NCBI GenBank assembly: GCA_027061805.1
Contig: JAMOWA010000064.1
Coordinates: forward strand, 62,001-126,000
DNA: 64,000 nucleotides
Source of the DNA: Thermoanaerobaculia bacterium
Lineage (GTDB): Bacteria; Acidobacteriota; Thermoanaerobaculia; Thermoanaerobaculales; Sulfomarinibacteraceae
Direction of reading: 5' to 3'
The first letter of the stretch is position 1. Every line of letters starts with the position of its first letter. A model generated the notes under the pieces. It was not told where the DNA came from and ran no database searches. It saw only the letters and a list, made by a program, of their open reading frames with translations. Shown piece by piece: positions 52,132 through 54,935 of this stretch. A program made the translations under genes and the position numbers.

Positions 52132-53181
52132 ATGCGCCACCCCAGACCACTCGCCGTCCTGGTCCTCCTCCTGGTGGGGGCCGTGCCCGCCGCACGGGCG
52201 GCCGGACCCACGGTGCCACCCTCCCGGAGCGATGCCACCGCACCCGTCCCCTGGACGCGTCTCGAACTCAGGGGCTCGAAGTTCTTCATGACGGCCACCA
52301 CCACCGTGGAGGTCATCCGGGTCTCCGCCGGGCGGGCCCGGCCGGACCTCCGGCAACCCCCGGACCGGCCCCCGGTGGAGGCCGGCGGGCCGTGGGTGGA
52401 CGTGGTCCGCGTCTCGAGCCGCCTCCCCTTCGGGAAGTCGGAACGGGCCACCGTCTGGCTCGACGGCGCCAGTGGGGCGGTCCTCCAGATGGAGAAGCGC
52501 GTGGGCGGCGGCAGGCCCTACTGGAAGCTCCGGCGCTTCGTCCGGGGGGGCTACCACGAGTGGCGGGAGGCCCCTGCCAGCAAGGGCGAGCGGGGGCTCC
52601 CCCGGGAGCGGTGGACGAAGCACACCGAGAAGACCGTCCACTGGGATGCGGAAGCGATCGGTGACAGCGTGGTGACCGACTCCTACGCCCTGCTGTACCT
52701 GGTCTCGCGGGCCCACGTCCGGGGGACCACCGAACCCCTGGTGCTCCACGTGGTCTCCCGGGGCCGGCTCGTGGAGCTCCGGATCTCGCCAGGTGACAGG
52801 GTGCGGCGGCGCGTGTCCTTCGTGGAGGCGTGGCCCGGAGGCTCCCGGAAGCGGTCCGGCCAGATGGAGCTCCTCACGCTCCACGGCGTGCCGCGATGGC
52901 TCGACGACCCCGCCGAGCCCGGAGCCGACACGGGCTTCATGGGGATGCGGGGGCCGCTCACGATCCTCGTGGAGCCCGCGCTCGGCATCCCCTGCCGGGT
53001 GGAGGGCAGCGTCAAGGACGCGGGGCACCTGACGGTGAGGCTCACCCGCGTGGAGCTCCGGGACGCGCCGTACCGGTGCATTGTCCGTGGGAAGCACCTC
53101 GTGGGCATGGCCGGGGGGATGGATGGTCCGAAGGACCGGAGAGGGGAACGGCCGGCCCCACGCCCATCGAGCCCACGGTGA
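52132..53181 (+). CDS. Exported protein, lipocalin/DUF3108-like tentative
   Basis: 349 residues with a signal peptide (PLAVLVLLLVGAVPAARA). Contains long amphipathic strands (TATTTVEVIRV, ERATVWLDGASGAVLQMEKR, SVVTDSYALLYLVSRAHV, PLTILVEPALGIPCRVEGSV) and a periplasmic or outer-membrane beta-barrel look, somewhat like DUF3108. No firm family. The C-terminal 35 residues, arginine- and proline-rich, read through into the remnant of another gene on the opposite strand, so the true end may have been altered by that rearrangement. Confidence 0.6.
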   Translation: MRHPRPLAVLVLLLVGAVPAARAAGPTVPPSRSDATAPVPWTRLELRGSKFFMTATTTVEVIRVSAGRARPDLRQPPDRPPVEAGGPWVDVVRVSSRLPFGKSERATVWLDGASGAVLQMEKRVGGGRPYWKLRRFVRGGYHEWREAPASKGERGLPRERWTKHTEKTVHWDAEAIGDSVVTDSYALLYLVSRAHVRGTTEPLVLHVVSRGRLVELRISPGDRVRRRVSFVEAWPGGSRKRSGQMELLTLHGVPRWLDDPAEPGADTGFMGMRGPLTILVEPALGIPCRVEGSVKDAGHLTVRLTRVELRDAPYRCIVRGKHLVGMAGGMDGPKDRRGERPAPRPSSPR

Positions 53182-53275
53182 TGGTGGGCCTGCCGGTGAG
53201 CTTCCTCGTCCAGCCGGCCAGGTTGAGATCCGAGCCCGGGAGCTCGGGCTCCCGGTGGCGGCGGGTGGAGCAGTG

Positions 53276-53431
53276 GAAGAGGGCCACGCCCTTGGGGCAG
53301 ACGTGGCCCCGGCTGAAGGGGTCCTCGCGGCCCCCGCGGATGGAGACCACGCGGCCGTCCTTCACCCGGATCTCCAGGCCTCAGATGGCCTCGCAGAGCG
53401 CGCAGGCCCGGTGGCGGGTGGCAGCCGTCAT
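53276..53431 (-). pseudogene. Remnant of a molybdopterin oxidoreductase (Fe4S4 N-terminal part) with in-frame TGA
   Basis: From an ATG at 53431 the frame reads MTAATRHRACALCEAI, then TGA at 53383-53381, then GLEIRVKDGRVVSIRGGRED and PFSRGHVCPKGVALF. This is the N-terminal iron-sulfur module of molybdopterin oxidoreductases (CxxCxxxC...CPK), with the third cysteine codon TGC replaced by TGA. Homology stops after about 50 codons and the several hundred residues expected are absent, so the gene is truncated. The ATG overlaps the transporter stop as TGATG, so it was once coupled to that gene. A selenocysteine reading of the UGA is possible in principle, but the truncation argues for a pseudogene. 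Confidence 0.75.
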
Positions 53432-54657
53432 CAGGCCGCTCCCAGGAGATGCAGCCAGGCCAGGGCGAGAAGGCAGAGGGCCAGGGTCAGTGGCACGCCC
53501 ACCCTGGCGTGTTCCCGCCATCCGATGACGATGCCGGAGCCCTGGGCCACCGAGGCCACGATGATGTTGGCGATGCTGCCCACCAGCAGCAGGTTCCCGG
53601 CGAAGGTGCTCACCAGGGCCAGCACCACGGCGCCCTGCCCGTCATGGACCCCGGGCAGCAGCAGCATGACCGCCGGCACGTTGGAAAAGAGGTTGGAGCC
53701 CACCAGGGTCACCGCCGCGAGGCCGGCCGTGGAGTCCAGCGGAACGCCCCACGAGCCCAGCGCGGCCAGGCCCCGGGCCGCCAGCCCGGTCTCCACCAGC
53801 GTGCCGGTGACCACGAAGAGCCCGATGAAGAGCAGCAGCAGGTTCCAGTCCACCAGCTGGAGGAGCCGGCGGGAGGTGATCTCCCGGTTGACCAGGAGGA
53901 CGGCGCCCGCCCCCAGGGCCACCACGGCCCGCGCCGGGATCCCCGCCAGGAAGAGCACCACCACCACGGCGAGCACCAGGAGGCCCTTGGCGGTGTGCCA
54001 GGGGTCGAAGTCCGGCAGGGGGCCCGTCGACGCTTCCCAGCTTCCAGGGTCCCGCTCCAGGCGGCCCCGCCAGGCCCAGGCCACCGCAACCCAGACCAGG
54101 AACAGGCCCAGCAGGGCGGGCACGCCCCCGTCCAGGAGGTACCGGGCGAAGTCGAGGCCCATCCTCTCGCCGATCAGGATGTTCTGGGGGTTGCCGATGA
54201 GGGTGGCGGCCGAGCCCGTGTTGGCGGCGAGGGCCAGGGCCAGGAGGTAGGGCACGGGGTCCAGGCGCCTGCGGTGGGCCACCTCCAGCACCACCGGGGC
54301 CATCCCCAGGCAGACGATGTCGTTGGAGAGCAGCGCCGACAGCAGGCCCGCCGAGGCCACCAGGAGTCCCAGCAGGCCCAGGGCCCCCATTCCCTCGCCG
54401 CCCACCTTCCGGGTCACGGCGGTGTAGAAACCTCCCAGGCGGAGCTGGGCCGAGACCAGCATGAGGCCGAAGAGCAGCGCCATGGTCCCCACGTCCACCG
54501 CCCCCCACGCCTGCCGGGGCGTGAGCACCCCGCCCACCACCAGGGCGATGGCCCCCACCACGGCGATCCCCGTGCGGTCCAGGGCCAGGCCGGGGATGCT
54601 TCCCAGGAGCATCCCGGTGTAGACCACCACGAAGACCGTCACCACGAACGCCGTCAC
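53431..54657 (-). CDS. SLC13/ArsB-type (citrate/arsenite permease superfamily) transporter
   Basis: 408 residues from a GTG at 54657 that follows AGGAGG by 9 bases; longer starts would add a hydrophilic leader with no helix. About eleven membrane helices in two repeats. Ion-transporter signatures NDIVCLGMAPVVLEVAHR with ANTGSAATLIGNPQNI (first half) and VGSNLFSNVPAVMLLLPG (second half). Family members carry dicarboxylates, sulfate, silicate or arsenite; the substrate cannot be assigned. It was followed by a molybdopterin oxidoreductase, so an anion used by that enzyme is a fair guess. Confidence 0.85.
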   Translation of the reverse strand: MTAFVVTVFVVVYTGMLLGSIPGLALDRTGIAVVGAIALVVGGVLTPRQAWGAVDVGTMALLFGLMLVSAQLRLGGFYTAVTRKVGGEGMGALGLLGLLVASAGLLSALLSNDIVCLGMAPVVLEVAHRRRLDPVPYLLALALAANTGSAATLIGNPQNILIGERMGLDFARYLLDGGVPALLGLFLVWVAVAWAWRGRLERDPGSWEASTGPLPDFDPWHTAKGLLVLAVVVVLFLAGIPARAVVALGAGAVLLVNREITSRRLLQLVDWNLLLLFIGLFVVTGTLVETGLAARGLAALGSWGVPLDSTAGLAAVTLVGSNLFSNVPAVMLLLPGVHDGQGAVVLALVSTFAGNLLLVGSIANIIVASVAQGSGIVIGWREHARVGVPLTLALCLLALAWLHLLGAA

Positions 54658-54935
54658 GGTAGGGAACCTCCTCCCGGCCCCCCGGTCCCATCCACATGGG
54701 CACCGTGCCGGATCCACGCCCACGGGACTCTCGTCCTGCTCCGGGGTGGACCCTGCGGTGCCGTGCTCCACCGGTGTGACCGGCTGGTCCATCCACGCCA
54801 GGAAGAGCTCGCAACCCGGTGCGAGGACCACCTCTCCCCGGCATCACAGCGATCACTATACAGAACATACAGGACCAGCCTCCACGCGCCCTCCGGTGGT
54901 CCATCTCCCCAGGCCTCCGGGAACCACGATGGGAA

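Follow-up and report, generated by a model that had tools for sequence, protein, structure and literature searches.

A Probable Chimeric Deletion Pseudogene with an In-Frame TGA at a Cluster Cysteine Site of a Molybdopterin Oxidoreductase Head

Introduction

Ordinary deletion pseudogenes of bacteria, with short repeats at the join, are of a known kind. Formate dehydrogenase-type selenoproteins, in turn, belong to the molybdopterin family. In formate dehydrogenases, selenocysteine coordinates the metal of the catalytic part rather than the cluster of the head, and we know of no member of the molybdopterin family in which selenocysteine is a ligand of the cluster.

We analyzed a locus that recalls both, lying in a 64,000-nucleotide stretch of DNA from a Thermoanaerobaculia bacterium; this whole stretch is called the window below. 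Like ordinary deletion pseudogenes, the locus shows truncation, what is most likely a nonsense codon, an apparent join at similar short sequences, and full genes in relatives. Unlike them, its join keeps the frame of two neighboring genes, and it can mislead a reader of motifs. With the formate dehydrogenase-type selenoproteins it shares the molybdopterin family, a TGA at a cysteine site, and selenocysteine machinery in the genome; in contrast to them, no catalytic part is left at the window locus. None of the titles or abstract openings turned up by a literature search names the locus. We consider it very probable that the locus is a chimeric deletion pseudogene derived from a molybdopterin oxidoreductase gene and an old yellow enzyme gene, with the TGA as a nonsense codon. 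Its significance goes little beyond bookkeeping, the case being one of ordinary gene decay. The features of the locus are collected in table 1.

Table 1. Features at and around the chimeric locus (positions in the window).
Feature	Position	Strand	Evidence or remark
Convergent gene, 349 aa	52132..53181	+	Matches in 18/39 related genomes
107-bp repeat	53066..53172	+	Second copy C59:206830-206936, 84% identity
Old yellow enzyme/NADH:flavin oxidoreductase internal fragment, codons about 258-303 of 371	53158..53291	-	tblastn, DNA alignment
Join zone between both genes	53279..53291	-	DNA alignments to L048/L045 and L044/L049
Molybdopterin oxidoreductase 5' remnant, Fe4S4 head, ~51 codons	53279..53431	-	PF04879; relatives' heads
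In-frame TGA, third Fe4S4 cluster cysteine position	53381..53383	-	Cys in relatives
SLC13/CitMHS-type transporter, intact	53434..54831 (stop codon 53431-53433)	-	PF03600, E 6.5e-53

Results and Discussion

A Molybdopterin Oxidoreductase Head without Its Body

Read downwards from 53431, the head is MTAATRHRACALCEAI-TGA-GLEIRVKDGRVVSIRGGREDPFSRGHVCPKGVALF, with the cluster pattern C-x2-C-x3-(TGA)-x27-C, and the minus-strand translation of the whole remnant (53431-53279) is MTAATRHRACALCEAI-TGA-GLEIRVKDGRVVSIRGGREDPFSRGHVCPKGVAL. The molybdopterin Fe4S4 domain PF04879 covers residues 9-51 of the remnant in Pfam (E 5e-11, 42.9 bits for a cut-off of 22.7). By tblastn, the remnant is 56-69% identical, with E values down to 8e-19, to the heads of the same enzyme at seven loci in genomes of the same family. 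On this score and these alignments, the head match is not due to chance, and the original prediction, which had recognized the Fe4S4 head of a molybdopterin enzyme from the sequence alone, was right on this point. It had also correctly placed a TGA at the third cluster cysteine, so that three of the four cluster cysteines are encoded in the remnant.

The enzyme concerned is an oxidoreductase of the MopB/DMSO reductase superfamily, formate-dehydrogenase-alpha-like and about 715 aa long, and the PF04879 head is what it has in common with the remnant. Compared with this gene of about 715 codons, the remnant keeps about 51, one cluster cysteine codon among them being TGA. An intact relative, at locus L046, carries PF04879, PF00384, and PF01568; its best NCBIfam score is to TIGR01591 and lies far below the cut-off. 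Pfam detects neither the catalytic nor the dinucleotide-binding domain (PF00384/PF01568) at the window locus. The rest of the gene, described as missing in the original prediction, is indeed absent there, and our searches of the assembly did not recover it elsewhere: the molybdopterin enzyme gives two matches, the fragment and a distant one at 25% identity, neither of them a full copy. PF04879 occurs at two other places in the genome (L001 and L002), which, from their translations, we take to encode NuoG/hydrogenase-type proteins.

In-Frame Fusion to an Old Yellow Enzyme Fragment

Downstream of the head, the unshifted frame enters GVALFHCSTRRHREPELPGSDLNLAGWTRKLTGRPTITVGSMGV, a continuation that had been overlooked. 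Residues 3-51 of the chimera correspond to molybdopterin heads and residues 44-91 to old yellow enzymes, all in one common frame, the latter residues aligning with codons 255-302 of the old yellow enzyme gene at L049. The full L049 protein belongs to PF00724 in Pfam. In tblastn comparisons with eight intact genes (L044 and L049-L055), the flavin enzyme fragment shows 60-73% identity (E 6e-20 to 2e-15), and its DNA is 88% identical to that of L044 across 123 bases. Both ends of the gene are lacking: about 46 codons are left of an enzyme whose complete FMN-binding barrel takes about 340-370 residues. No full copy of the old yellow enzyme was found in the assembly, the single match being the fragment itself.

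The join zone partly matches both parents, and the breakpoint is therefore ambiguous over about 13 bases, with the frame preserved. The motif CPKGVALF had been read as part of the molybdopterin head. This holds for the first part of the motif; GV-LF, in contrast, resembles the flavin enzyme, where relatives have GV-IF or GV-VF, and the motif is thus the join itself. A short motif match can in this way sit within a chimera of two adjacent broken genes. A repeat search across 52900-53500 returned nothing accounting for the join.

On its other side, the flavin fragment ends inside a 107-bp repeat, in which its last 15 bases (to 53158) lie and of which two copies were found in the genome. The convergent gene, too, overlaps this repeat, with its final ~35 codons. 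It has no Pfam match, and its homology to other genomes mostly stops at residue about 309-315 (near 53076), with a few matches reaching residues 320-347. A match of chimera residues 75-149 on contig C59 proved to be the 107-bp repeat.

A Putative Ancestral Gene Pair and Its Collapse

The arrangement of the two parent genes can be seen in G004, a genome of the window's own family of organisms. The molybdopterin gene is split over two contigs of this genome: C208 has its first half, and C80 has its codons 358-716 (query numbering), with an intact flavin enzyme gene 37 bases beyond the end of the match. Within the sequence stretches compared, no partner gene was found beside either full gene at the other loci, and the pair is known from G004 alone. 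In G008, another genome of the same family, a molybdopterin head remnant is followed by a flavin enzyme gene with an in-frame loss of some 590 bases (L057, 5103-5624). The intact gene at L050, from the genus of G008, has CTGGCCGGCTGG, a 12-base word, at both edges of the piece missing in G008. According to these alignments, the same gene pair has collapsed twice, in the window and in G008, separately and in different ways, both times in frame. Two collapses of one pair within a family would make a small, neat case of deletions that join short similar sequences.

In the proposed scenario, an ancestor would have had a molybdopterin oxidoreductase gene followed directly, on the same strand, by an old yellow enzyme gene. 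A deletion of about 2.8 kb, as estimated from the lengths in relatives, would have fused codon ~51 of the first gene to codon ~258 of the second, by joining at a short similar sequence and with the frame retained by chance. A second event would have cost the flavin enzyme its last ~68 codons, the fragment now bordering the 107-bp repeat. The TGA would be a nonsense mutation in a gene that had become dispensable. We infer the order of these events, the size of the deletion, the joining between short similar sequences, and the rise of the TGA with the loss of function, not before it. It counts against a chimeric pseudogene that the neighbor order comes from one genome in which the molybdopterin gene lies over two contigs, and that the collapses in the window and in G008 are both in frame.

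The substitution patterns of the two pieces were compared by codon position, with small numbers in each case. In the flavin piece, the differences between the fragment and L044 are distributed 10/2/7 over the three codon positions versus 3/2/11 between the intact genes L044 and L050. Counted by codon, again with small numbers, the fragment and L044 differ by nine amino-acid-changing and seven silent codons, versus five and nine for L044 and L050. As far as such counts can indicate, the differences in the flavin piece are as expected of relaxed constraint. For the molybdopterin piece, the differences from L048 (6/8/22, likewise small numbers) fall mostly at third positions, which argues against a pseudogene and suggests that this part decayed recently or little.

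An assembly artefact, the organism having full genes and the join or the TGA being an error, is improbable. The assembly is fragmentary (68 contigs, 96.85% complete), which favors an artefact, but the join sits within a 240-kb contig and the missing parts of either gene are on no other contig. That the pair collapsed separately in G008, and that the flavin piece has the extra amino-acid changes expected of decay, also speaks against it.

The TGA Is Most Likely a Nonsense Codon

A TGA at a cysteine site need not be a nonsense codon here, as this organism can make selenocysteine, which counts against the pseudogene. The original prediction had proposed looking for selA, selB, and selC, and the genome does encode selA (476 bits), selB (334.6 bits summed over both pieces, for a cut-off of 242.25), selD (372 bits), and a tRNA-Sec whose anticodon is TCA. 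The TGA could accordingly be read as selenocysteine replacing the third cluster cysteine, in a chimeric selenoprotein that would be short, about 129 residues, and end at the next TGA; once the TGA is read through, the frame is open to residue 130. We regard this reading as very unlikely.

No hairpin of recognizable SECIS type had been noticed in the original prediction; a loosely SECIS-like one does follow the TGA, with an 8-base loop that starts with G and begins 17 bases after it. This hairpin satisfies a loose test devised for the analysis, which is not diagnostic: of 600 TGAs sampled at random from the 1,324 of the window on both strands, 324 also pass, and 58 of the 600 do so with no fewer pairs. 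All seven Cys-encoding relatives pass too, three with no fewer pairs, the motif used in the test itself requiring Cys in relatives. By a stricter stem count, the best perfect stem after the TGA has five pairs, a value that 861 of 1,000 shuffles also reach. For the 45 bases that follow the TGA, the folding energy is -20.0, for a mean of -16.8 and a standard deviation of 2.7 in single-base shuffles. At a lax threshold, Rfam gave three matches across 52500-54500, each far below its gathering score.

Comparison with relatives also argues against selenocysteine. Cysteine occupies the TGA site at all seven family loci, as read from the alignments, and at all 20 scorable loci of a phylum sample (26 tried, L077-L102, from which six not fitting the motif were dropped). 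A match was present in 27 of 39 genomes in one comparison and in 280 of 396 in another; among the matches listed, a stop inside the head occurs solely in the window's own match. The position within a full protein that is Cys in relatives belongs here to a protein whose body is deleted, and with the enzyme body gone the cluster would serve nothing. The portion of PMC10779653 consulted lists selenocysteine in formate dehydrogenases at the Mo/W active site and mentions no selenocysteine ligand of the Fe4S4 cluster.

The TGA is most likely a nonsense codon of ordinary gene decay, not a selenocysteine codon: the loose hairpin test is passed after 324 of 600 random TGAs, what follows in frame is a chimera of two broken genes, relatives have Cys at the site, and with the catalytic part deleted a changed ligand would be useless. 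It is likewise very unlikely that a small selenoprotein is made from the fusion, with selenocysteine in place of one ligand of a molybdopterin-family Fe4S4 cluster. The locus shows that even in a genome that uses selenium, a TGA at a cysteine position may reflect nothing but decay. We give next to no credence to the fusion being a selected new small gene that starts at the GTG at 53365, downstream of the TGA, and was retained for its open frame: the frame does run for 107 codons (53365 to 53042) and both known collapses of the pair are in frame, but the same fusion is in no relative among the matches listed, the product would lack both a barrel and a complete cluster motif, and such frames are common here (80 frames at least 60 codons long within 12 kb).

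The Transporter Upstream

The transporter gene preceding the chimeric pseudogene is 83% identical to those at L107 and L108 and 76% identical to that at L106. Its stop codon and the ATG of the remnant share one base (TGATG, 53433-53429), from which the original prediction had deduced a former coupling of the two genes. The overlap is there, and it may reflect real former coupling; the comparison of four named loci with a related transporter weakens the deduction, as a molybdopterin gene lies downstream at one of them. That locus is L108, where the gene, looked for behind the transporter as suggested at the outset, lies about 2.1 kb away. In the short stretches available past the transporter match at L106, L107 (Thermoanaerobaculia), and L109, namely 0.4, 5.4, and 7.4 kb, there was no molybdopterin match. 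Downstream of the related transporter at L107, from about 10000, we observed a long frame containing MTCSDDRLWEAKLAAWLHDPVEKA, presumably resembling a CRISPR Cas10-type protein.
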